52,257 nt of DNA from an uncultured bacterium (lineage in GTDB: Bacteria; Actinomycetota; Actinomycetes; S36-B12; CAIKAW01). The DNA is taken from positions 1 to 52,257 of the forward strand of contig CAIKAW010000044.1 in assembly GCA_903825575.1 (NCBI GenBank), in the 5' to 3' direction. The notes below the pieces were generated by a model. It did no database searches, was not told the origin of the DNA, and saw nothing but the letters and a program-made list of their open reading frames with translations. This document shows, piece by piece, positions 3,604 through 52,257 of the stretch. Both the position numbers and the translations under genes were made by a program. How positions within the stretch are numbered: position 1 is the stretch's first letter; each line of letters opens with the position of its first letter.

Positions 3604-4386
3604 TTGAAGTCAGCCAAGAATGAGCCGGTGCGAACCGATTCTGCCGCTGCCCTGCTCGATCTAATCCTGCCCCGCGAATGTGCCGGCTGCGGTTCGGCAG
3701 GACGACGATTCTGCAACGTTTGCCGCCAGTCGCTCGAACGCGAACAGGTCAGGCCTGCGTTGGGCCAGGTCGCCGGCCTTCCGCTTGCGGCCGTGGCCCA
3801 ATACGGCGGAGTGACTCGCTCATCGCTGATCGCCTACAAGGAACACGGCGCACTAGCAGTTGCCGCTCCACTCGGGGAGGCGTTGGCACAGGCGGTGGCG
3901 CGGCTGCCAGGTCTGGATGCGCGGTGTCTGACGCTCTGGCTCATTCCCGCCCCAAGCGGTCGTGGGGTCGATCGGCGCCGGGGATCTAGTCCGATGCTCG
4001 AGCTCGCGAAGGAAGCTGCCAGTGCCCTGCGACGACACGGCTGGCGGGTCGTCGTCTGCCCCGCGGCCATCTCAGTGCGGCACCGACTTGATCAAGTGGG
4101 GCTGTCTGAGAATGAACGTCGAGCCAATCTGTCGGGGGCCATCGCTCTGCGGCCGATCCGGATTCCAATTGACGCGGCCATCATCCTCGTAGACGACATC
4201 AGTACCTCGGGAGCAACTTTGACCGAATTGGCGCGCGCAGTCAGGGCTGGCGGTCACATACCATTCGGGGCAGCGGTAGTAGCGCTGACAAGTGCCGAAC
4301 AGCACCTGCGCTCGGCCGCCACCGGGACTAACGTGGAAGTCGTTCGCGAAAGGCGTCCGAAGAGCGTTCCTCGCTCTTCGATTTGA
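3604..4386 (+). CDS. ComF-family phosphoribosyltransferase-like protein
   Basis: The protein has 260 residues. Two CxxC pairs (C26/C29 and C37/C40) form the N-terminal zinc-binding 'double zinc ribbon' of the ComF family. The C-terminal part carries the PRPP-binding loop IILVDDISTSGAT. The family includes ComF/GntX, linked to DNA uptake in competent bacteria; its role in actinobacteria is not established. The start used is a TTG at 3604. I see no better in-frame ATG before the zinc motif, so the N-terminus is uncertain by some residues. It lies between lpqB and hpf in the order common in Actinobacteria and is followed after 12 bases by hpf. Confidence 0.82.
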   Translation: MKSAKNEPVRTDSAAALLDLILPRECAGCGSAGRRFCNVCRQSLEREQVRPALGQVAGLPLAAVAQYGGVTRSSLIAYKEHGALAVAAPLGEALAQAVARLPGLDARCLTLWLIPAPSGRGVDRRRGSSPMLELAKEAASALRRHGWRVVVCPAAISVRHRLDQVGLSENERRANLSGAIALRPIRIPIDAAIILVDDISTSGATLTELARAVRAGGHIPFGAAVVALTSAEQHLRSAATGTNVEVVRERRPKSVPRSSI

Positions 4387-4398
4387 AGGGGGTCAGCT

Positions 4399-5016
4399 GT
4401 GAATACCGCCGTAGCAGTTAGCGTGAGGGGTCGCCACCTTGAGGTGTCGCAAGGATTTCAAGATCACGCGGCCGCCAAGTTCGACCGGATTGCCCGATTC
4501 GGTGTTCCCCTTTCACATATAGACGTTGAAGTGTCCCGTGAGAGCAGTTCTCGTCGCGGCGAAATCGCTTTTGAGGTTGAGTTGACCTGCATTGGTTCTG
4601 GACCAGTCATTCGGGCCGAAGCCGCGGCTGCAGACAAATACGCCGCACTAGATCTGGCCTACACCCGACTTGAGGAGCGGCTACGTAGGGCGGCGGATCG
4701 CCGTCGTGATCACCGCACTGCAGATTCCCATCACGGCACCGGCATGGCGGCGATGAGCGAGGCAACTCCAGCTAGCGAACCTTCGGATGCCGAAGGCGAT
4801 GATGAAGTCTTTGCCCAAGGCGCTGTGGTCGTGCGCGAGAAGACCCACGCGGCAGGCCAGATGGATGTTGAGCAGGCGCTCTACGAGATGGAGTTAGTCG
4901 GCCACGACTTCTTTCTGTTCCGCGAGTTACAGACCGGACAAGCGGCCGTGGTTTATCGCCGCCGCGGGTATGACTACGGCCTGATTCGCCTGGGCGAAGA
5001 ACCCGCGGCGGTTTGA
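4399..5016 (+). CDS. hpf: Ribosome hibernation promoting factor, long form
   Basis: The product has 205 residues. The N-terminal half (about 1-105) is the ribosome-binding HPF/YfiA beta-alpha fold. An acidic, low-complexity linker (about 106-145) leads to the C-terminal dimerisation domain (about 150-200), recognisable from MDVEQALYEMELVGHDFF and VYRRRGYDYGLIRL. Long HPF pairs 70S ribosomes into inactive 100S dimers in stationary phase or stress. The GTG start at 4399 has a purine-rich site (GAAGGGGGT) just upstream, which overlaps the end of the previous gene. It converges with the ycaQ-like gene, leaving only 12 bases between the two stops. Confidence 0.92.
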   Translation: MNTAVAVSVRGRHLEVSQGFQDHAAAKFDRIARFGVPLSHIDVEVSRESSSRRGEIAFEVELTCIGSGPVIRAEAAAADKYAALDLAYTRLEERLRRAADRRRDHRTADSHHGTGMAAMSEATPASEPSDAEGDDEVFAQGAVVVREKTHAAGQMDVEQALYEMELVGHDFFLFRELQTGQAAVVYRRRGYDYGLIRLGEEPAAV

Positions 5017-5028
5017 AGCGCAGTGTTG

Positions 5029-6231
5029 CTAGCGAGCTAACGCAGCCAGCAATGGCTTGCGAGCAACGTCAGGTGTAACTCGGTCGATCCGAATATCGGT
5101 GGAGCCGATCCAGCTGGATGCGTTCTTCAGCGCGGTAGCTACCCCGCTGATCGCGCTCCTTGGAACAGCGCCGTTCGCGACTTCGAAAGTCACATGTTTA
5201 GCCACTAGCGTGCTGCCTTCGCGGCCTGGGTCGACGCGGGCGATGAGTTCACCCTTATGGAGCACGGGCATTGCGAAGTAACCGTGGATTCGCTTCGCAG
5301 CTGGCGTATACGCCTCAAGTCGATGTTCAAGGCCGAATAGCCGGGCGGTCCGAGCGCGATTCCAGACAAGTGAGTCGAACGGTGAGAGTAGGGCGGTCGC
5401 AGTTGTAACCGGTCGGTCTACGGAGCGAAGCGCGGCGGGATCTGCGTAGCAGCCATTGGGCCAGCCTTCAACCGTTACAGGCACAAGCCCGCTCTCAGCG
5501 ACAACGCTTCGGACCTGAGCACTACTCAAACGGTGAACATCTGCAAGATCCGTGGTGGTGCCGACGCCGAGTGTCTGGCCGCTGCGGCGAACCAGTTCGG
5601 TCAGACAAGCACGGTCATCCGGGAGCAGCTCGAGTAGCGAAGCGGGGAGCGCCCGTTCAGCCAAGTCGTAGACGCGTCGCCAACCGGCCCGTCTGGTGAC
5701 GACGACTTCGCCGATGTCCCAGAGCCATTCGACGGCGATCTTGGTTTCCGACCAGTTCCACCACTCGGCTCCCGCCTTTGCGCCACCGAGTTCGTTAGCT
5801 GTCAGGGGTCCCTCAGCCGCCAGCCGTTTGAGTACCCCCTTCAGCGCCTGACGCGGAACGTCGTGCCAGCGGTACCCGCGCGCTACGAATTCCCGCCGCC
5901 GGAATCCGAACCAGGGGTAACTATCCAGGGGCAGGATGCACGCGGCGTGTGACCAGTATTCGAACGCGTTGGGCGGATCTGACCAATAACCGGCCTCGAT
6001 CGCTGAACGTTCGAGAGCCCCTAGGCGGGAGTAGGCGACGAGTTCGTGGGAGCGGGCTAGGACGCTGATCGTGTCTAGTTGTACGGCGCCAAGTTCAGCC
6101 ACCATCCGGACGACTCGGTTTCGCTGCGCTCGCGTCCCACCAGCTGCGACCGAGTTGGATCCAGCGGCAAGTCCTTGCGCGCGCAATGCCAGGTGGCGCG
6201 CCTGAGCAATGGAAAGCGTCGCTGGCGTCAC
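5029..6231 (-). CDS. YcaQ/AlkX-type winged-helix DNA glycosylase (HTH_42 family)
   Basis: This 400-residue protein belongs to the winged-helix DNA-binding family of E. coli YcaQ (AlkX) and Streptomyces AlkZ, glycosylases that excise alkylated bases and unhook interstrand crosslinks. The catalytic QxD motif appears as GAVQLDTI (Q51, D53), matching the QxD of the AlkX branch rather than the QxQ of AlkZ. Conserved segments such as FEYWSHAACILP and the C-terminal VARVDPGREGSTL are present. Its start overlaps the end of lysX by four bases (ATGA), so it is probably co-translated with lysX. The substrate is inferred from the family, not shown. Confidence 0.85.
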   Translation of the reverse strand: MTPATLSIAQARHLALRAQGLAAGSNSVAAGGTRAQRNRVVRMVAELGAVQLDTISVLARSHELVAYSRLGALERSAIEAGYWSDPPNAFEYWSHAACILPLDSYPWFGFRRREFVARGYRWHDVPRQALKGVLKRLAAEGPLTANELGGAKAGAEWWNWSETKIAVEWLWDIGEVVVTRRAGWRRVYDLAERALPASLLELLPDDRACLTELVRRSGQTLGVGTTTDLADVHRLSSAQVRSVVAESGLVPVTVEGWPNGCYADPAALRSVDRPVTTATALLSPFDSLVWNRARTARLFGLEHRLEAYTPAAKRIHGYFAMPVLHKGELIARVDPGREGSTLVAKHVTFEVANGAVPRSAISGVATALKNASSWIGSTDIRIDRVTPDVARKPLLAALAR

Positions 6232-9200
6232 GACTCGGGACGCGTCAATGGAAACAAGATGGTGTCCCGAATGCCCCGGCCAGTTAGGAACATGACCAGC
6301 CGGTCAATCCCCATTCCTTGGCCACCGGCCGGGGGCATGGCGAATTCCAGCGCCCGCAGGAAGTCTTCATCAAGTTCCATTGCTTCCGGATCGCCTGCCG
6401 CCGCAAGTAGTGATTGCTCTGTCAGTCGAGCTCGCTGGTCGATCGGATCGGTCAGTTCGGTATAGGCCGTACCGAGTTCGGCGCCGATGGCCACCAAATC
6501 CCAACGTTCGGCGAGGTCGGGCGCGCCGGGCTTGCTGCGCGTGAGTGGGGATGTTGCTCGTGGGAAATCGCGCCAGAAGGTTGGCTGGACGGTGTAACGC
6601 TCACAGGTTTCCGCGTAGAGCCTTTCGATGAGTGCCCCAACGCTCTCGCCTTCCGGTGCGTTAAGCCCTAACGCAACGCAGTGACGCCGCAACGTGGCTT
6701 CGGATGTGGCTACCGTGACGTGTTCGCCAAGGGCTTCAGAGATGCCCGTGCAGACGTCACGTTGGCTCCACTCTTCCGCAAGGTCTATCTCGTGCGTTGA
6801 GCCATCAGGCAGAGCGCGAATAAGCCGCGTTGTCCCGAGGACGTTGCTTGCCGCTTCAATGATCAACTCACGGGTCAGCTCGCGCATGGTTTCGTAATCG
6901 CCATACGCCTCATACATTTCCAGGCTCGTGAATTCCGGATTGTGTGAGCTGTCAACGCCTTCATTACGGAAGTTTCGGTTCAGTTCGAATACTTTCTCTA
7001 CCCCTCCTACCAGGAGTCGTTTGAGGTACAGCTCCGGAGCGATGCGAAGGTAAAGGCGTAGGTCGTAGGCATTGCTTCGCGTAACGAACGGCCGGGCGTT
7101 CGCTCCGCCATGAATCGGTTGGAGCATCGGTGTTTCCACCTCGACGAATCCGCGACTCCATAGCGATTCTCGAATGCTGCGCGTGACGCCCGACCTAATG
7201 TGCAGCAAATCCCTGGATTCAAGATTGACGATCAAATCTAGGTAGCGGTGACGAACTCGAGCTTCGCTGTCGGTCAGACCTTTGTGTTTGTCGGGCAACG
7301 GATGCAAGCACTTGCCAAGGAGAGTCCAATCGGTGGCGAGTACGGAAAGTTCGCCACTCTTTGACGTGATCACCTCGCCGGTAGCGCCGACCTGATCGCC
7401 AAGATCGATATCTGATTTCCATTTTGCTAACAACTCAGGTCCGGTGGTCTCAGCGGAGAGCATGACCTGTAGGTCACCTGACCCATCTCGGATGGAGGCA
7501 AACGTCAGGCCACCACCGACTCGATTGCGCATGACGCGGCCGGCAACCGTGACGCTGCTGCCCGTTTTAGTGTCCGGAGGCAGATCCTGGTGAGCAGCTC
7601 GCACTTCTGCAGTCGTGGCATTGCGCCGGAATGATGCCTGGAAGGGGTCCGATCCTTCGGCGCGCATTCGCTCGAGTTTTGCCAGGCGAACTTGGTCCTG
7701 TTCGGGGCGGCGGTCTGACTCGGAGGTGTCTGCTACGACAGGTGCTACTTGTTGCAGAGCTTCGTCAACCAATGCTCCGACACTTTGGCCGCCAACAGTG
7801 TCAACGGCGGCCCGCCGCAGGCTTGCCAATGGCGTACGAGTCGTCAAGAAACCTTCCGCGCCGGCGGCCGCAATCAGTACCCGCGGCAAGTCGCCTGCGG
7901 CGTCATAGCAAAGCAATCGTGGCACCCAGTCGGGCTGATACTTGGCGTTTGCCCGATACAACGATTCGATTTGCCAGAATCGCGAAAGAAACAGCAGCAT
8001 GGCGCGACCTGCGCGTAGGAACGGCCCGGCACCGATTCGTTCGCCTTCTTCAAACACCGATCGCATGACCGCGAAGTTCAACGATGCTCGTTCGACTCCC
8101 AGTCGCGGTCCACAGGCAACAAGTTCGCTGACCATGTACTCCATTAGACCGTTATCGGCGGCCCGGTCGCGTCGCATCAGATCCAAAGACACCCCACGCT
8201 GGCCCCACGGCGAGAGCGAAAGCAACGCTCGCAGTTCACCGTCCGCGTCTACGGCCTCTACTAGCACGCAACGACCGTCAGCGGCGTCTCCGAGGCGTCC
8301 AAGTGCCATGGAAAAGCCGCGCTCGGTTTCGGTGTCGCGCCAAGCGTCGGCGGCGAAGACGACCTGCGACATTTGCTCCGCGGGAATATCGCAGTGCCGA
8401 CGCACTCGAGTCGTGTAGCCAGCGCGCTCTACGCGCCGAACCGCTTGGCGGACCACGCGCATCGCACGTCCATCCAAGCGGAAATCAGCGAACTCAACGA
8501 TTGCTTCGTCGCCGATGGTTAGCGCGGCAAGCCCAGCGCGCGTATAGGCCGAAGCCCCGGTTTCACTGGCGCCAACGACGGCTGGGGCCCACGCAAAGGC
8601 CCGCGCCTCATCGATCCAAGCGTCGATTGCGCCGGGCCAGGCCTCGGGGTCTCCGATCGGATCGCCGCTGGCAAGGCTCACTCCGCTTTGGACCCGATAG
8701 GTGATGGCCGCCTTGCCGGTAGCCGAGAACAGCACCGATTTGTCGCGCCTAGTGGCGAAATATCCAAGCGAGTCGCGGTCCCCGTACTCGGCAAGTAGAG
8801 CGCGGATCGCCACCTCGTCAGCTATGGAAAGTCGCTCATGTTTACGGCGGGGGCGCACAAGCGCCCAAGCCGCAGCGAGATATGACAGGGCTCCGAGCAG
8901 CGCAAGTGTGAAAGCGACGATTCTCGGAGGGTTGCCGATAACGGTTGCGTTGCCGCCCACGACCTGCGAGATGGTGTAGGGGAGGCGACTAGCGGTTGTA
9001 AGGGAACCATGCAAGGTTTCAACAATCAGCCAACCAGAAACCAGGCTGACAGACATCGTTATGACTAGGACTACCGCAGCCCAGAGCAAACTTCCCTTGG
9101 TCACCTTGGCGTAGAACTCGCGCCGTGAAAACAACATGATCAGCAGCACGACGAGCGCGAAGATCGCGTTGGGGACAAATTCAGGGTCGACCACCGATGT

Positions 9201-44962: not shown

Positions 44963-45328
44963 GGGGGTGAACGGTTTCGACAGCGGAGGCCGTGATAGGA
45001 GAAGCGGGCCGAGGACCGGCGGTTAACTCGTTAACGATCCGTCGAAAACAATAAGTGCCAACACACAGCGCACTAGTCTCGCCCTCGCTGCCTAAGCGAG
45101 TATCGGGACCGTCGGCCTGGGAATGCCTTCGTCCCAGTCACCGGCGTCATCTAGAAGGCTTACCGATCATCCCGGTTCCGGGGGTGTGAGGAACAACTAA
45201 CAGAAACTGGGCCGTGTTTCCCGTTGAGCCACTCGAAGCGGGAAGGCCGAGAACACGCCATCGTGGCTGCGCCCGGAGAAGCCCTTGATCGTTGCCGTTG
45301 GACCCGGGTTCGATTCCCGGCACCTCCA
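44963..45328 (+). ncRNA. ssrA: Transfer-messenger RNA (tmRNA)
   Basis: This about 366-base RNA rescues ribosomes stalled on broken mRNA. Its 5' end GGGGGUG pairs with CACCUCC near the 3' end (45321-45327) to make the acceptor stem. The conserved GAACGGTTTCGAC follows the 5' end, and the T-arm GGGTTCGATTCCC closes the tRNA-like part. The tag frame (45057-45095) encodes ANTQRTSLALAA and a TAA stop, an actinobacterial-type tag. The terminal CCA is not encoded (ACA follows) and must be added. The TAGACT at 44940-44945 may be its -10 box. A terminator follows. Confidence 0.97.
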
Positions 45329-45331
45329 CAA

Positions 45332-45357
45332 GTGAGTAGTTCACGTTGACTACTCAC
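45332..45357 (+). other. Hairpin just after ssrA
   Basis: Nine-base arms GTGAGTAGT and ACTACTCAC surround an eight-base loop immediately after the tmRNA 3' end. It has no T-run, so it may help 3' processing or fold with the terminator hairpin that follows. Confidence 0.6.
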
Positions 45358-45374
45358 AAAACCCCTGTGTTGAA

Positions 45375-45411: not shown

Positions 45412-45575
45412 CTTCGCCCGAGCGTGGTCTCGGGGCCGCCGGCGAGTTCCGCGTAGGCCGATTTGTGTCGCCGAACTCCTTCCGAGGCCCGTCTGTAAAC
45501 ATGGCTGTGACCCTGTTGGCTCGTGGCCCTCAGGGTCGAAGCGTTCTGTTCAGGGTTTCCGGAGTCTTGCTCGGG

Positions 45576-47615
45576 CTAGGTTGGCGGGTCTGACGATCGC
45601 CCGCGAGGCGCCACGGTCGGTGTCATAACGATGCGAAGCGCTTCGGCAATCACGTCGGGGTCGAGCCCCGAGTAGTAGCCGGGGTCGAGGGCGTGAGCGC
45701 CCTGCTTCATGACGAACGAGTACAGCTGCCTAACCCAAGCGGCGAGCGCGATGAAGCCGTATGCCAAGTTCCACTTCTTCGCGTGGACCCGGATCGAGTG
45801 CCGGCCGAGTCCGTAGTGGTGGTGGGTGACGGAGAAGTCGGCTTCTGAAAGGTTCCTCCTGTAGTACGCCTTCGCCCACCTCGTGGATCCCCAGAGCAGA
45901 GGTTCGAAGGAGGAAGGCATTTCTTGGCGACTGACAGTGAACGTGAGCGAGCAACCACATGGCTCGCCCTTCGTGCAGGTTGTGATCGCGGTGACCAGGG
46001 TCCTGTCGACAAGCTTGTAGAACGGCGAGTTCACGCACCGTGCTCGGACACCGCGGACTGCGGTCGGTCGACCTTTGGAATCGCGTGTGATCTGGTCGGG
46101 GACTGCTGGTCCGCGCATCTTGAGTCCGCCGCTACTGGTCTTCCCGCTGGGTCGGAACATGAAGGGACGGCGTTGGTCGAAACGTCGTTGTGATGCACGT
46201 AGTTCGTCACGGTTCGCTTTCATGCCAGGGCGAGTTAGGTCAAGTAGTCCGGCGGGCATGCCGTCGGTGAAGAAAGCGCCGTCGATCAGATCAACTCCGG
46301 TTTGGAACGTTTTCCTCTCTCGCTGTTGATGTTTGAGGTCCTTGATGAGGGTGAAACCCATGTCTTGAGCGATCTGTTCGAACTCTTGGGCTGGGAGTTC
46401 GGTGTAGATACGGTCGAGTTGTACTTGGACGTTGTGCATTCCGTTGTTCGCAGCGTGCCCGAACACGGTCAGGGCTGCTTCACCTTTGTGATCCCCTCCA
46501 GGTGCAGCGTGGTAGGCAGCGACCAATGGGGGATAGGGAGTTCCGTCGGGGAACCGGCCGGAAGAGATCAGTTTGTGTTCGTCGCGGCCGTTGAGAACTT
46601 CGCTGCGACGAAAGTTGCCGCTGCCTCGGTACGCGTTGCGAGCACCTTCATCGTGGGTCCAGATCAGTCGCTTGTCTTCGCCGAGTTGGGGGAACCGACG
46701 ATCCATACGCGTGAAATCCCCAGTCACCACAGGGCCCGCCGGAATGGGTGCCCGAGATTTCGAGTCGCGTGGGTCGGGCGCGGGAGCGTTCGCCAGGATC
46801 TGATCGAGTTGGGCTTTGAGGGTATCTGTCGCTTGCTTGGGTCGCTTGTCTTGTCGTAGCTGGATCAGATTGCCGCCGACGGTTTCTTTGTCAACGTCCT
46901 GCACCCAATCGGGGTCGATGTTTGCTTTCGGGCCGTGGCCCCGGGTGACGTTGTGGGTCTCGACAACTGAGGAATCTAACGCGAACTCGTCCGAGAATGG
47001 CATGCCCGAGTAGTCCCACAGTCGGCACAACATTGCATTGAAAACTGTTTCCATCTCTGCGCCTCGCGGGCAGTCGCTCGTGCAATCGAATGTGCTGGGA
47101 GCGAGGTCGTGCTCATCAGTAGGTGAAAGGAACTCGCCGTCGGGAGACCACAGGTTGCCGTCGAGTTCAAAGATGTGGTTGTGGTTGTTCAACCGTGGGT
47201 TGAACGCGAACGCGATCTGTTCGAACAGGTAAGCGACCTGCCGTTCAGTGACCACTTTCTCGCCGCCCCTGTTCGGGTCAGTCCAACGAACGCCAAGGTA
47301 GCGCTGCTCTCCGGGGTCAAGGGACGCGAGCAACGCTTGGATGCCACGAACATGAGAGTCGGACTGTTTGCCTGCCGCGTTGGCGATCCCAGCTGCGATC
47401 AGTACGGCAACACGCAGCGCGCGGGGCCGACCGGTGTCATGGTCCACGCGCGTCTGAATCAGTTCGAGCACGCGGGAGTCGCGCAGCGCGTCACGAATGA
47501 ACCGGACGATATCGCGGGTCTTGATGTCGGCAACGTTGCGTGGCTTGACCGCGTACTTCTTCCCGAACGCCAGCGGCCGGTAAGGCACCGGCACTTCTAT
47601 GGTTGATCGGCTCAT
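45576..47615 (-). CDS. DDE-transposase-like protein of a two-gene mobile unit
   Basis: This 679-residue protein resembles large DDE-type (IS4/IS1182-like) transposases. A first Asp candidate is in FALDSSVVETH. A segment like the family's 'DxDA ... GYK' region is IWTHDEGARNAYRGSG. A second Asp candidate is in DLIDGAFFTDG, and a Glu candidate in YYRRNLSEADFSV, followed by a helical tail. Two cysteine clusters (CTSDCPRG and CTKGEPCGC) could bind metal. It overlaps the upstream recombinase-like gene by four bases (ATGA), so the two are co-expressed. Terminal inverted repeats were not found, so mobility is unproven. The family is recognised by pattern only. Confidence 0.6.
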   Translation of the reverse strand: MSRSTIEVPVPYRPLAFGKKYAVKPRNVADIKTRDIVRFIRDALRDSRVLELIQTRVDHDTGRPRALRVAVLIAAGIANAAGKQSDSHVRGIQALLASLDPGEQRYLGVRWTDPNRGGEKVVTERQVAYLFEQIAFAFNPRLNNHNHIFELDGNLWSPDGEFLSPTDEHDLAPSTFDCTSDCPRGAEMETVFNAMLCRLWDYSGMPFSDEFALDSSVVETHNVTRGHGPKANIDPDWVQDVDKETVGGNLIQLRQDKRPKQATDTLKAQLDQILANAPAPDPRDSKSRAPIPAGPVVTGDFTRMDRRFPQLGEDKRLIWTHDEGARNAYRGSGNFRRSEVLNGRDEHKLISSGRFPDGTPYPPLVAAYHAAPGGDHKGEAALTVFGHAANNGMHNVQVQLDRIYTELPAQEFEQIAQDMGFTLIKDLKHQQRERKTFQTGVDLIDGAFFTDGMPAGLLDLTRPGMKANRDELRASQRRFDQRRPFMFRPSGKTSSGGLKMRGPAVPDQITRDSKGRPTAVRGVRARCVNSPFYKLVDRTLVTAITTCTKGEPCGCSLTFTVSRQEMPSSFEPLLWGSTRWAKAYYRRNLSEADFSVTHHHYGLGRHSIRVHAKKWNLAYGFIALAAWVRQLYSFVMKQGAHALDPGYYSGLDPDVIAEALRIVMTPTVAPRGRSSDPPT

Positions 47616-48613
47616 GTGCGGTCTCGCATGGGGTGACGCATCGCTGCCAGAGCCTCGGTCTCTTCGGGGTCGGGCATGAACTCGGTCATGTCGATCAGGA
47701 ACGACAGCGACTTCAACCCCGCCAGGTCACGCAGTACACGAGGGTCGACGCCAGCACGCATCCGGTCGACCATCCACGTGGTCCGCAACCGCTGCGGCGA
47801 GATCGCTGGGACGTCGCGGCCGAGGTCGACTGAGCGGATCGCGTTCGCGTAGGCATTTCGTCCAGCAGTTATGCGAATGAACGGTTCACTCGAATACTCA
47901 GCCGCCAACGCCATGAGCGGATCGACCCACACGTCGACGACAGGCACGAGACGTTCGCGATACTCACCGAGGGCAGCAAATACACCCTTAGCGGAGCTAA
48001 CAACGTCGCGGCCGGTGAACGCTTGAGCTTCAGCGACGGTCGGGCCGAACCCGAGACCCATCACAAGCGTTCCCCACGCCAGACGCTTCTTATCTCCTTC
48101 CGCCATCGCCTGAACTGCCCGGACCACCTGTTCGACCTCGGAGTCGGGGTAACCGCGACGGATACCTTTCTGCGATCCGCCGGGAACCCGGCTCGCCTTC
48201 ACTGGCCACCCACCGGATTCGTTCAAGACAGGACCTAGACGACGCAACAAAGTCTTGTAGTCGCTCACCGACCCTTTCGTCAGACGAACACCACGCCCGG
48301 CCTTCACTTCGGTTTGCTGCCAGGTAGCCCACGTCTCAACCAACTCGAGGTGAAATACACACTCACGAGTCAGAGGGAAACCCCGCAGGTGTGCCCAAGT
48401 TAGGAACGGCATCAAGCCGCGGGCGTCTCGGTAGAACGACATCACAGACGGTGGGTTCAGGACTGCGAGGCAATCCAAGAACAACGGCCGAATCTGATCC
48501 CACACGTGGTCGGAAAGACCATAAGGACGGTAGTCCAGCGCACGCTCAATGACCTCGTCCAAATCGATCGGGGCGATCATGCGTCGAGCCTCGGCATCTG
48601 CCAGGGGTGGCAT
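47612..48613 (-). CDS. Tyrosine-recombinase-like protein lacking catalytic residues
   Basis: The protein has 333 residues from the ATG at 48613, chosen because GGAGG stands seven bases upstream; an earlier in-frame start lacks a site. It follows the layout of phage integrases: an N-terminal SAM-like DNA-binding domain (about 40-125) and a catalytic-type domain (about 150-325). The usual arginine site reads GFGPTVAEAQ, the HxxR box reads SPQRLRTTW, the G-H site reads AGLKSL, and no tyrosine stands in the final helix. It is therefore probably inactive in strand exchange but may still bind DNA. It precedes the DDE-like gene with an ATGA overlap. The 284 bases upstream, before hsdM, hold nothing I recognise. 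Confidence 0.6.
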   Translation of the reverse strand: MPPLADAEARRMIAPIDLDEVIERALDYRPYGLSDHVWDQIRPLFLDCLAVLNPPSVMSFYRDARGLMPFLTWAHLRGFPLTRECVFHLELVETWATWQQTEVKAGRGVRLTKGSVSDYKTLLRRLGPVLNESGGWPVKASRVPGGSQKGIRRGYPDSEVEQVVRAVQAMAEGDKKRLAWGTLVMGLGFGPTVAEAQAFTGRDVVSSAKGVFAALGEYRERLVPVVDVWVDPLMALAAEYSSEPFIRITAGRNAYANAIRSVDLGRDVPAISPQRLRTTWMVDRMRAGVDPRVLRDLAGLKSLSFLIDMTEFMPDPEETEALAAMRHPMRDRT

Positions 48614-48897
48614 CCGAATGCCTCCAAGTCGCCCCAAACAAGCGGGGAGCGCAGCCGCAACCAACGGCTATCCCGCTGGCTGCGCGGACCCATCGGCCCC
48701 ACTCGCGACTCGCCCGCCCCCGCCACGGGGGAAACATCCCGAAACTTCACAAAGGACGTCCTATCGCAATCGCGCCGACAACCCTGGACGGCCGGCTGCG
48801 GCGATGCCAGCCCAACGTCGCTGGTCGCCGATAGGCTCAATGAGGAAGAAGTCGAGAAACACGGCACCGAAGGTGCGCAGAAGGGGGTCCACCGAAC

Positions 48898-51333
48898 GTG
48901 GCAATCAAGAAATCGGAGCTCTACAGCTCTCTCTGGAAGTCCTGCGACGCCCTGCGCGGCGGAATGGACGCATCCCAATACAAGGACTACGTCCTCGTCA
49001 TCCTGTTTGTGAAGTACGTTTCCGACCGTGCGCGTGCCGGCCAGACACTCCTCGACGTCCCCGCGGGAGGATCTTTCCAGGACCTTCTCGCGCTGAAGAA
49101 CGACCCAGAAATCGGCGACAAGACCAACAAGGTCATCGCCAAGTTGGCGGCGGCGAACGACCTTCAGGGTGTCATCGACCTGGCCGACTTCAACGACCCG
49201 GACAAACTAGGTCGAGGCAAGGAGATGGTCGACAAGCTGACCGACTTGTTCGGCATCTTCGATCGACCAGAACTCGACTTCGGAACTAACGCTGCCGAAG
49301 GCGACGACCTCCTTGGCGATGCCTACGAGTACTTGATGCGGCACTTCGCAACCGAGTCAGGGAAGTCCAAGGGGCAGTTCTACACGCCCGCCGAGGTCTC
49401 GAGGATCCTGGCGAAGGTCGTCGGCCTTGATGGTGCCACCAACAGCGACCAGACCATCTACGACCCAACCTGCGGCTCGGGGTCGCTACTCCTGAAGGCT
49501 CACGCAGAAGCTCTGGCAAGCACCGGGCTTGACTTGGCTGTGTACGGCCAGGAGATGGACAACGCAACTGCTGCCCTCTCCAAGATGAACATGATTCTCC
49601 ATGGCGTGGAGGGGGCGGAGATCTGGCAAGCCAACACCCTTAGTTCACCGCACTTCAAGGACGAGCGGGGGCGCTTGCAGGCTTTCGACTTCGTTGTCGC
49701 GAACCCGCCATTCTCTTCCAAGTCGTGGACCACGGGCGTGGACGTCGCCAACGATCCCTTCGGTCGGTTTCAGTACGGAACTCCTCCGCCGAAGAATGGT
49801 GACTACGCGTTCTTGCTGCACATGCTCAGCAGCCTGAAGGCTGACGGTAAGGCGGCAGTGATCTTGCCCCACGGAGTCCTGTTCCGAGGGAACGCGGAGT
49901 ATGGGATTCGGAAGGAGCTAGTCCGGCGAGGCTTCATCAAGGCGGTGATCGGCTTGCCTGGGAACCTGTTCTACGGAACAGGGATCCCTGCCGTCATCAT
50001 CGTGCTCGACAAGGAGGGCGCCGGTTCACGCGACAGCATCTTCATGATCAATGCAAGTACTGGATTCATGAAGGACGGGGCCAAGAACCGACTTCGCGAA
50101 CGCGATATTCACAAGATTGTGGACACATGCCGAACGAGTGTTGAGATCGAAGGCTTCTCGCGAGCCGTTCCGCTCTCGGAGATCTCCAACAAGGAGAACG
50201 ACTACAACCTGAACATTCCTCGCTACATCGAGGGAGCTGCACTTAGCCCGCGCCAGGACCTATCGGCTCACCTCTATGGGGGTGTTCCCGAGCGAGACCT
50301 TGACCACTTCGCCAACGCATGGAAGATCATGCCGTCACTCCGTGGGGAGCTGTTTGCGGAAGCTCGCCCAGGCTACGCGGAGCCTCGCCTGGCGCCTGCC
50401 GAGGTGGCCAGCTGCGTGGCTTCGTCTGCAGAGTTTCGGGCATGGTGGGACTCCGTCGATGCGGCCTTGTCTGAGTGGGCAGAGCGCGCAGCAACACTTC
50501 TAACCTCGTTGAGCCCCGGCGACAAGCCGAAGCTGGTTGTCCAGACCTTGGCGGAGGATCTACTGGCGACGTATAGGCCACTTCCGCTCGTGGATGAGTA
50601 CGCCGCGTATCAGGCGCTCCTCAGCTACTGGGCGACGGTCATGCATGACGACGTGTTCGCCGTCGTGTCATCGAACTGGATGGAAGCGATGAAGCCCATC
50701 CGAGTGACCGACAGTAAGGACGTTGCGGACTACACAGTCGGCAAGACTCGTTTCCGTTCCCAGCTGTTGCCGGCCGAGTTCCTGGTCGCAGCGAAGTTCG
50801 CGAACTTGGCGAACGACCTCAATGATGCGGAGAGCGCGGAACGAGCAGCGAGCGCGATCATCGACGAACTATTGGAAGAACAGAACGTCGAGGAAGCTCC
50901 GCTGTATGACTTGGTGTCAGATGGCACCAAGGTGACCAAGCGGACTGTGCAGGAGCGCCTCAAGGCGGTCGGCACTAGCCAGGGCACGACAGATGAAAGC
51001 GCAGCCCTGACCACGCTCATCGCGCAGTTCGATGCCCTGGACAAGGCCAAGAGCAAAGTGAAGGGCGCACGCGAGAAGCTCAACGCGGCTCTGGGCACCG
51101 CATATGCGTCATTGACGCTCCCGGAAGTCATCGAGCTCTCTGTCCGGGGGAAGTGGTTGGCGCAGATCGAGCGGGATGTCCGACGGGAAATGGATCACGT
51201 CGCGGTGGGTCTTACCGACGATGTCGCCCAGCTAGTCGCCCGGTATCGCAAGACCCTCGCCGACGTCACCCAGGAGGCGCGCGAGCTCGCGGCCGAAGTC
51301 GACGAGTACTTGAAGCGGATGGCCAAGCCGTGA
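48898..51333 (+). CDS. hsdM: Type I restriction-modification methyltransferase subunit HsdM
   Basis: This 811-residue N6-adenine methyltransferase has the N-terminal HsdM domain (about 1-130) beginning KKSELYSSLWKSCDALRGGM. The SAM-binding motif DPTCGSG is at residues 189-195 and the catalytic NPPF at 269-272. It is longer than the usual roughly 500 residues: after about residue 440 comes an extra, mostly helical and coiled-coil-like region of about 370 residues. A GGGGG-rich site lies before the GTG. It overlaps hsdS by four bases (GTGA). The restriction subunit HsdR must lie beyond the window. Confidence 0.93.
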   Translation: MAIKKSELYSSLWKSCDALRGGMDASQYKDYVLVILFVKYVSDRARAGQTLLDVPAGGSFQDLLALKNDPEIGDKTNKVIAKLAAANDLQGVIDLADFNDPDKLGRGKEMVDKLTDLFGIFDRPELDFGTNAAEGDDLLGDAYEYLMRHFATESGKSKGQFYTPAEVSRILAKVVGLDGATNSDQTIYDPTCGSGSLLLKAHAEALASTGLDLAVYGQEMDNATAALSKMNMILHGVEGAEIWQANTLSSPHFKDERGRLQAFDFVVANPPFSSKSWTTGVDVANDPFGRFQYGTPPPKNGDYAFLLHMLSSLKADGKAAVILPHGVLFRGNAEYGIRKELVRRGFIKAVIGLPGNLFYGTGIPAVIIVLDKEGAGSRDSIFMINASTGFMKDGAKNRLRERDIHKIVDTCRTSVEIEGFSRAVPLSEISNKENDYNLNIPRYIEGAALSPRQDLSAHLYGGVPERDLDHFANAWKIMPSLRGELFAEARPGYAEPRLAPAEVASCVASSAEFRAWWDSVDAALSEWAERAATLLTSLSPGDKPKLVVQTLAEDLLATYRPLPLVDEYAAYQALLSYWATVMHDDVFAVVSSNWMEAMKPIRVTDSKDVADYTVGKTRFRSQLLPAEFLVAAKFANLANDLNDAESAERAASAIIDELLEEQNVEEAPLYDLVSDGTKVTKRTVQERLKAVGTSQGTTDESAALTTLIAQFDALDKAKSKVKGAREKLNAALGTAYASLTLPEVIELSVRGKWLAQIERDVRREMDHVAVGLTDDVAQLVARYRKTLADVTQEARELAAEVDEYLKRMAKP

Positions 51334-52257
51334 CGGTCTCGCAGCGCGTGCCTGACGAGTGGACTCTGGTAGCGCTGTCGTCCGCGGGCTCGGTCTACGG
51401 TGGATTGTCCGGGAAGACCAAAGACGACTTTGGCAGTGGAACTTCGTTCTATGTGCCCTTCACGAACGTCATACGCAACGTTGTGATGGACCCGCTCCAG
51501 CTGGAGCGGGTCCGAATCAGACCATCGGAGTCGCAGAACCTCGTTCGCCCCGGAGACGTCCTGATGAACGGGTCTTCAGAGGTTCCAGAAGAGGTGGCAT
51601 TCGCTTGCTATGTCCCCGACGGTGTCGATGAGGCGCTGCATCTCAACAGCTTCTGCTTCGGATTCCACCCCTTCCCTCAACCCACGATCCATCCCTCATA
51701 CCTGGCGTATCTCATGCGCAGTTCCGTCGGTCGAGAAGCCGTCAGGGCGTTGGCGCAAGGATCCACGCGCTACAACATTTCGAAGTCGGCCTTGCTGGCA
51801 ACGAAGTTCTACGTTCCCGGTATCGAAGAACAGTTGATCATCGTCAAGGCTCTGGACAGTCTGCGAGAACTGAGTTCGAAGCAGGAGGAACTTCTAGCGA
51901 AGAAGATCCAGATCCGAAGCGCAGCTCTCGAGGCGCTCCTGTCTGGGGAGGTCGTAAGTCCTCTCACCCCAGAGCGGACAACGCGCGTGAGAGTTCGGAT
52001 CGATGACCTCGCGGTACCGATTCGCGGCGTCTCTTATGACCCGGACAGGGACCTGCACTCAGGCGATCGAACGACCACGGTCCGTCTGCTTCGCTCCAAC
52101 AACGTCCAGGACGCTCGCCTGAACATCGATGAGATTCAGTACGTCGACGAGTCGAGGGTGTCTGACCGCCAGTACATGAGACCTGGCGACATCCTGGTAT
52201 GTACGGCGAACGGCAGCCGTGCGCTTGTCGGCAAAGCTGCGCCGTTCCGCGCTGCCC
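51330..52257 (+). CDS. hsdS: Type I restriction-modification specificity subunit HsdS (partial)
   Basis: The first 309 codons run to the window edge. Residues about 10-185 form the first target-recognition domain, ending in GSTRYNISKSALLATKFYVP, the usual TRD/helix junction. A conserved helix (SLRELSSKQEELLAKKIQIR) follows, and a second domain starts around residue 225 (VRIDDLAVPIRG). HsdS reads the bipartite DNA target for HsdM and HsdR. The GTG start overlaps the hsdM stop. The target sequence cannot be predicted. Confidence 0.92.
   Translation, partial: MTVSQRVPDEWTLVALSSAGSVYGGLSGKTKDDFGSGTSFYVPFTNVIRNVVMDPLQLERVRIRPSESQNLVRPGDVLMNGSSEVPEEVAFACYVPDGVDEALHLNSFCFGFHPFPQPTIHPSYLAYLMRSSVGREAVRALAQGSTRYNISKSALLATKFYVPGIEEQLIIVKALDSLRELSSKQEELLAKKIQIRSAALEALLSGEVVSPLTPERTTRVRVRIDDLAVPIRGVSYDPDRDLHSGDRTTTVRLLRSNNVQDARLNIDEIQYVDESRVSDRQYMRPGDILVCTANGSRALVGKAAPFRAA

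Follow-up and report, generated by a model that had tools for sequence, protein, structure and literature searches.

A pair of overlapping genes located behind the tmRNA gene (ssrA) of an uncultured actinomycete belongs, on the evidence of sequence comparison, to a family of widespread cargo-carrying bacterial transposons whose insertion sites are the 3' tips of tRNA and tmRNA genes. Our preferred interpretation, to which we give a probability of roughly 0.55, is that these elements are two-component DDE transposons in which a catalytically dead tyrosine recombinase would serve as the target selector at the tRNA/tmRNA tip. The family is apparently undescribed, and it matters because its elements carry restriction-modification and other defence genes.

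The locus

The window, by which we mean the whole stretch of 52,257 nucleotides that was analysed, contains the following features.

44963-45329, (+) strand: ssrA (tmRNA), found by ARAGORN; probable insertion target
45330-45365: predicted left terminus of the element, AAGTGAGTAGTTCACGTTGACTACTCACAAAACCCC, placed by position and by a TTCACG motif as in relatives
45576-47615, (-) strand: DDE transposase gene, ORF of 679 aa, Tn5/DDE_Tnp_1-like
47612-48580, (-) strand: tyrosine-recombinase-fold gene, ORF of 322 aa, predicted to be catalytically dead
48898-51333, (+) strand: hsdM, type I methyltransferase, putative cargo (PADLOC MTase_I, 1082 bits; Pfam N6_Mtase and HsdM_N)
51330-52257, (+) strand: hsdS, type I specificity subunit, putative cargo, cut by the contig end at 52257

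The 679-aa and 322-aa ORFs are joined by a 4-nt overlap (ATGA), and the smaller gene has an in-frame alternative ATG start at 48613. The pair lies tail-to-tail with ssrA, with 246 bp between the transposase stop and the ssrA 3' end, which agrees with the two-gene unit that an earlier, sequence-only reading of this DNA had placed behind ssrA. The hsdM/hsdS operon is upstream of the pair on the opposite strand, and its hsdS product matches Pfam Methylase_S with an E value of 4.5e-4, slightly below the cut-off. The transposase is present as one copy in its genome.

A DDE transposase and a dead tyrosine recombinase

Neither window protein has a match in Pfam, PHROGs or NCBIfam at E values up to 10, in keeping with the earlier remark that no family name was at hand for the pair. 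Searching with the larger protein by tblastn gave relatives of approximately 29% identity on Streptomyces and Rhodococcus plasmids, while a transposase HMM retrieved relatives in 30 of 396 sampled Actinomycetota genomes and in 13 of the 166 genomes from the window's order. A search of genome contigs and viral contigs with the window transposase returned no relative, and none of the phage records searched was matched.

Only four positions, G62, D214, D401 and E591, are invariant in 28 transposase sequences, the last three being the catalytic triad of the larger protein, which has an RNase-H-like fold. Relatives match Pfam DDE_Tnp_1 and DDE_Tnp_1_6, one of them (L028) exceeding the DDE_Tnp_1 cut-off at 23.7 against 23 bits. 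The best structural match of the AlphaFold model (pLDDT 75.5, pTM 0.75) is Tn5 transposase (Foldseek E 2e-3, probability 1.00; Z 15.5 over 281 residues). Next in rank come piggyBac and retroviral integrase cores, the latter at a Z of about 10. With its triad invariant and its model matching Tn5 transposase, the larger protein, which had previously been proposed to be of DDE type, is on sequence and predicted structure a DDE transposase of the DDE_Tnp_1/Tn5 type.

The model of the smaller protein (pLDDT 89.8) has XerA, XerH, Cre, Tn1549 Int and other tyrosine recombinases among the PDB matches listed, with Foldseek E values of 4e-7 to 1e-5 for XerA, XerH and Cre, and both the core-binding and the catalytic domain of the tyrosine-recombinase fold are found in it. 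To locate the active site, catalytic columns were set by alignment to active XerC-like recombinases; the small-family HMM also retrieves active recombinases that have no DDE partner (e.g., L166, L168 and L169), and these were the guides for the columns. In the window protein Arg I is replaced by T, the HxxR His by Q, the second His by T, the box-III His/Trp by L and the Tyr by M, and Arg II is the sole catalytic residue kept. Arg II is present in all 37 of the family members aligned, Arg I in 7/37 and the Tyr in 10/37, with the HxxR His and the box-III His/Trp each at 0/37, and no member of the 37 has a complete catalytic set. These counts indicate that loss of the active site is family-wide and graded between members. 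The alignment thus upholds the earlier claim that the recombinase is catalytically dead, and the structural check that had been suggested for both proteins returned a tyrosine-recombinase fold and a DDE fold. Judged by sequence and model together, the 322-aa protein is a tyrosine-recombinase fold with a ruined active site.

Some loci contain more than one recombinase-like gene. At L026 two are found in tandem (3736-4863 and 5400-6539), both keeping the Tyr and one of them also retaining Arg I. Two or three tandem recombinase-like genes also precede the transposase in L089, L095, L097 and L098, and in such sets the upstream members can be strongly reduced.

Conservation of the pair

In nearly every case a full-length transposase gene is preceded on the same strand by one to three recombinase-like genes, and a 4-nt overlap like that of the window (ATGA or GTGA) occurs at approximately 15 of 28 loci. 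All strong matches of the small family (E<1e-30) adjoin a DDE transposase, so that the earlier suggestion of a coupled pair, as opposed to homologues occurring singly, holds. On plasmids, the matches to the small protein and to the transposase come from the same records. The pair recurs as one operon across Actinomycetota and, as far as sequence comparison can tell, the pairing is recurrent and no chance neighbourhood. One exception is G782 (locus L091), where an intact transposase has no recombinase-like gene; none was seen with the truncated copies L034, L035, L092, L102, L104 and L105 either, and broken copies are numerous among the relatives (L009, L010, L034, L102).

The branching of the transposase and small-protein trees is largely the same, with the window and L086, the two copies at tmRNA, forming a sister pair in each. 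Given this agreement, the trees do not tell which of the two proteins sets the target. Two further groups of copies have no adjacent tRNA gene. L164 (5294-6196) and L165 (5220-6056) hold a divergent recombinase-like/transposase pair that may have another target, and L007 (6421-9149) and L008 (5480-9077) are plasmid-borne, on pSCL3 of Streptomyces clavuligerus and on a plasmid of Rhodococcus opacus.

Insertion at tRNA and tmRNA 3' ends

In 29 of the chromosomal loci sampled, the transposase gene lies tail-to-tail with a tRNA or tmRNA gene, the two 3' ends usually being 180-260 bp apart (extremes 76 and 261). Eleven kinds of RNA gene are targeted: Leu (cag, gag, taa), Ser (cga, gga), Ala (cgc), Tyr, Gly (ccc), Met, Val and tmRNA. 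By a rough estimate, which takes a genome of 4 Mb with about 60 RNA genes, an interval of 300 bp and a fixed orientation, the chance of one such neighbourhood is about 0.2% per locus. When a Streptomyces transposase was used as the query, 22 of 26 named Streptomyces loci were at tRNA-Leu(gag) in the same arrangement. A suitable tRNA gene is lacking at the plasmid copies, L164/L165, L031, L097, L103 and copies near contig ends, and L095 and L098 lie 1.6 and 4 kb from tmRNA, with the L095 end motif directly at the tmRNA.

For the window's own target, ssrA was present in 30 of the 32 good-quality genomes searched (its own included). Similarity generally ends at the ssrA 3' end (query positions 367-375), and several relatives have a native hairpin terminator directly 3' of the gene. 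In L229 and L232, from the window's order, perfect 22/23-bp-spaced repeats occur directly behind ssrA with no recognisable transposase nearby; they may be remnants or belong to a more distant type of element.

Element ends and target duplications

Alignment of the flanks across genomes, an approach put forward with the sequence-only reading, revealed imperfect inverted repeats and 5-bp duplications at tRNA tips in relatives. The left end, directly after the tRNA tip, comprises two repeats of about 10 bp at 22-23 bp spacing, the motif varying between elements and the two copies agreeing inside each element. Repeats of this spacing scored at least 8/10 at 17 of the 29 ends; interior controls gave a mean of 0.25 and a maximum of 2. 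The far end has a single inverted copy of the repeat, after which 5 bp of the tRNA tip recur; of the duplication lengths tried, 5 and 6 bp, the former in exact register fitted best. End pairs reach 16-17 matches out of 20 in six elements, compared with at most 15 in 702 mispaired decoys. Terminal inverted repeats (TIRs) and duplications were obtained as follows.

G389, 18.3 kb element: TIR and 5-bp duplication GCCGA
G875: TIR and 5-bp duplication CCAGC
G656: TIR and 5-bp duplication TCCAC
G252: TIR and 5-bp duplication ACCAA
G241 and G230: TIR and 5-bp duplication (GCCAC)

The ends of G486, G782 and G401, at 13-14/20, are inside the decoy range and are supported by a second repeat or by tandem ends. 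The reconstructed empty site of G389 is continuous across the junction in the congeners G214 (93%) and G841 (90%), the same site being split by 18.3 kb in G389 itself, where the two junction pieces have only 7 bp in common. Inverted copies of the first 46 bp of the element were searched for and not found, because the far end has one short motif only. Right ends were not located in many elements, the Streptomyces group included.

Closely related Streptomyces elements, with cores mostly 94-96% identical, begin with the same GGGACGTTCACGA, and the five bases preceding it differ widely. We take this constant start behind varied 5-mers to mean that the copies inserted separately into host sequence just past the tRNA, in the manner of a DDE transposase, with drift of a short spacer in inherited copies as a less likely alternative. 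In the Streptomyces elements (L192-L211) a conserved palindrome, TGACATGYGGCCGSTTAACCGGCCA, marks an abrupt limit of the shared core, with differing cargo on its other side; the palindrome is present again close to where the core operon begins (e.g., L099 8358-8389 and 11064-11095), and it looks like a point of cargo exchange. Tandem left ends were also seen, at +11170 from the tRNA end in G486, +9199 in G252, +6604 in G230, +7091 in G049 and +7426 in G241 (loci L030, L093, L096, L035 and L089, respectively). Here a second left-end-like pair directly follows the far end, as if elements stack at one tRNA gene.

The window's own copy is less complete. The sequence after ssrA, AAGTGAGTAGTTCACGTTGACTACTCAC, contains the TTCACG motif and lacks the 23-bp direct pair (score 4/10), so the exact first base of the left end is a prediction. 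An earlier search for TIRs had found none in the flanks 45412-45575 and 48614-48897, which applies to those intervals, as the predicted left end at about 45330-45365, at ssrA, lies outside them. The right end is beyond the contig and was sought elsewhere in the window's own assembly, where matches were no more than in the control; the most promising candidate, L191, was rejected as it is inside an apparent housekeeping coding region. Both the window (45333-45358, GTGAGTAGT..ACTACTCAC) and L086 (6420-6471, GGCAGGTTCAC..GTGAGCCTGCC) have an inverted, not a direct, repeat at the end, which may be a different end layout of the tmRNA-targeting clade or a leftover ssrA hairpin. From the sequence, the window element would begin at the ssrA 3' tip, carry hsdM/hsdS and run off the contig, with both of its ends predicted. 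The ends and targets of the family, together with the point at which ssrA similarity stops, support insertion at ssrA well at the level of the family, not end to end. The notion that the pair is a mobile element is therefore borne out by the ends, duplications and empty site of relatives, and has to be amended as to its extent, which is larger than the two genes and includes hsdM/hsdS.

Cargo

Defence cargo is common among elements with both ends found. G252 carries a type I restriction-modification system, and a second G252 element a type III system. The five ORFs of G230 (6.6 kb, both ends known) encode the transposase, the recombinase-like protein, an EcoRI-type methylase, a GmrSD/HNH nuclease and AbiD. 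An OLD-like ATPase-TOPRIM protein is found in G782 and a CHAT protein in G875, and the cargo of G389, judged by eye from its sequence, reads as metal transport and resistance proteins.

Mechanism and alternative explanations

In our proposal the two genes would make up the transposition module of a DDE transposon that bears cargo and targets tRNA/tmRNA 3' tips. The Tn5-like transposase would bind the short imperfect terminal repeats, two about 23 bp apart on the tRNA side and one inverted at the other end, cut and join with a 5-bp staggered target cut, and always leave its own end beside the tRNA. The dead recombinase would bind or bend the tRNA gene end and recruit the transposase. In integrases the tyrosine-recombinase fold commonly recognises tRNA 3' ends, and for the dead recombinase we infer a role as target selector like that of TnsF in Tn6022 (PMC10293859). 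The earlier idea of the recombinase-like protein as a DNA-binding helper fits the fold, the conserved linkage and the targeting of tRNA ends, which all agree with it. The assignment of each protein to its DNA, the cut-and-paste mechanism and current activity of the elements are likewise offered as probable. We see even odds for the fuller proposition of a Tn7-independent two-component system in which the dead recombinase would be the sole selector of differing tRNA/tmRNA ends and deliver a non-specific Tn5-like transposase, with specificity evolving with the pair.

A counter-case is G782, a complete-looking element with both ends at tRNA-Leu and an intact transposase, from which the partner gene is absent. 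Either the partner was lost after insertion, or it is supplied in trans, or the transposase targets alone. The strongest alternative, which we still consider unlikely, keeps the same transposon and places the dead recombinase at the ends of the element itself, where it would bind the 23-bp-spaced repeats, pair the ends or set the tRNA-proximal polarity, while the transposase would pick the tRNA tip. Repeat units of 10 bp at two-turn spacing would suit paired DNA-binding subunits, and G782 sits at a tRNA gene without the partner. However, the end repeats of G782 persist and are recognisable although the partner gene is absent, which suggests that it is the transposase that binds them, and Tn5-type transposases are not known to be tRNA-specific. 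In favour of an own-ends role, Dada elements, which are DDE transposons of eukaryotes, insert into tRNA and snRNA genes although no partner of this kind is described for them (PMC3706591).

That the window copy is a domesticated or decayed remnant fixed beside ssrA and no longer mobile in this genome is improbable. It is a single copy with incompletely recognisable ends, and many relatives are broken; against this, both window ORFs are intact, the triad, fold and overlap are conserved, and elements elsewhere differ in host, tRNA and cargo. A conservative integrase-type element, with the repeats as attP core, a tyrosine recombinase (perhaps in trans) integrating and the DDE protein as accessory, would draw on the classical use of tRNA 3' ends as integrase sites, the resemblance of inverted repeats flanking a 5-bp overlap to a recombinase core, the tandem left ends and the residues kept by the L026 proteins, but it is very improbable given that no family member has the catalytic set, that the DDE triad is invariant, that the duplication is merely 5 bp with no long block of tRNA identity, and that a constant element end is separated from the tRNA by varying bases. 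Taken together, the DDE triad, the inverted ends and the 5-bp duplication argue for transposase chemistry and not conservative tyrosine recombination.

Comparison with known systems

No described family for the pair was found in the libraries or in the literature, mostly openly accessible, that we consulted; the only relevant systems were TnsF/Tsy, CASTs and Dada. Tn5 (IS50) shares the catalytic fold and the D-D-E order of DDE_Tnp_1/DDE_Tnp_1_6. Tn5/IS50 has one transposase gene, makes 9-bp duplications and shows little target specificity, whereas the present family has 5-bp duplications, a partner gene and RNA-gene targeting. Assignment to Tn5/IS50 (IS4 family) was rejected on duplication length, as 5 bp fits best and the G389 junction pieces share only 7 bp. 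A tyrosine-integrase element at tRNA was also rejected, as the active site is lost and only 5 bp are repeated at the far end.

Dada elements are likewise DDE transposons that are specific for RNA genes (tRNA and snRNA) and leave short target duplications, but they are eukaryotic, have a transposase of another superfamily, make 6-7 bp duplications inside the RNA gene and have no recombinase-like partner reported (PMC3706591). Tn7-like elements typically carry defence cargo and many lie downstream of tRNA genes; those Tn7-like elements and CASTs that home to tRNA through TnsD are likewise defence-rich cargo transposons beside tRNA genes (PMC8649781). CAST I-D inserts 30-33 nt downstream of the tRNA via TnsD and TnsABC (PMC10293859), whereas the present family inserts at the tRNA tip with a Tn5-type transposase.

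The closest parallel is TnsF of the Tn6022-type Tn7-like transposons, which is required for transposition and directs insertion into comM (Faure et al. 2023, PMC10293859). There, as here, a tyrosine-recombinase domain with a lost active site serves a DDE transposon (PMC10293859), and the gene for such a domain is transposase-linked in the present family too. TnsF bears zinc fingers at its N terminus and acts together with TnsABC and TniQ, whereas the present small protein has no apparent zinc fingers, the target is the tRNA/tmRNA 3' tip and not comM, and there are two core proteins; TnsA, TnsB, TnsC and TniQ are absent from G230, in which all five ORFs are assigned. The Tsy elements share a recombinase-fold target protein, site-specific insertion and cargo, but transpose by active tyrosine recombinases, target comM and have no DDE transposase (PMC10293859). 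Membership of Tsy was rejected, as none of the 37 small-family members has a complete catalytic set.

TnsF already exemplifies the principle of a dead recombinase selecting the target of a DDE transposon; what differs here is the type of transposase, the economy of two genes and the use of tRNA/tmRNA genes as targets. If our interpretation is correct, the family would provide a second instance, apparently independent of TnsF, in which a dead recombinase has become a target selector, with a partner set much simpler than that of TnsF, namely one transposase and no AAA+ ATPase or TniQ. It would account for some of the restriction-modification and other defence cassettes behind tRNA/tmRNA genes in Actinomycetota that have no integrase and, being compact, site-specific and naturally varied in its targets, such a DDE system could offer a direct route to understanding how transposases gain specificity.
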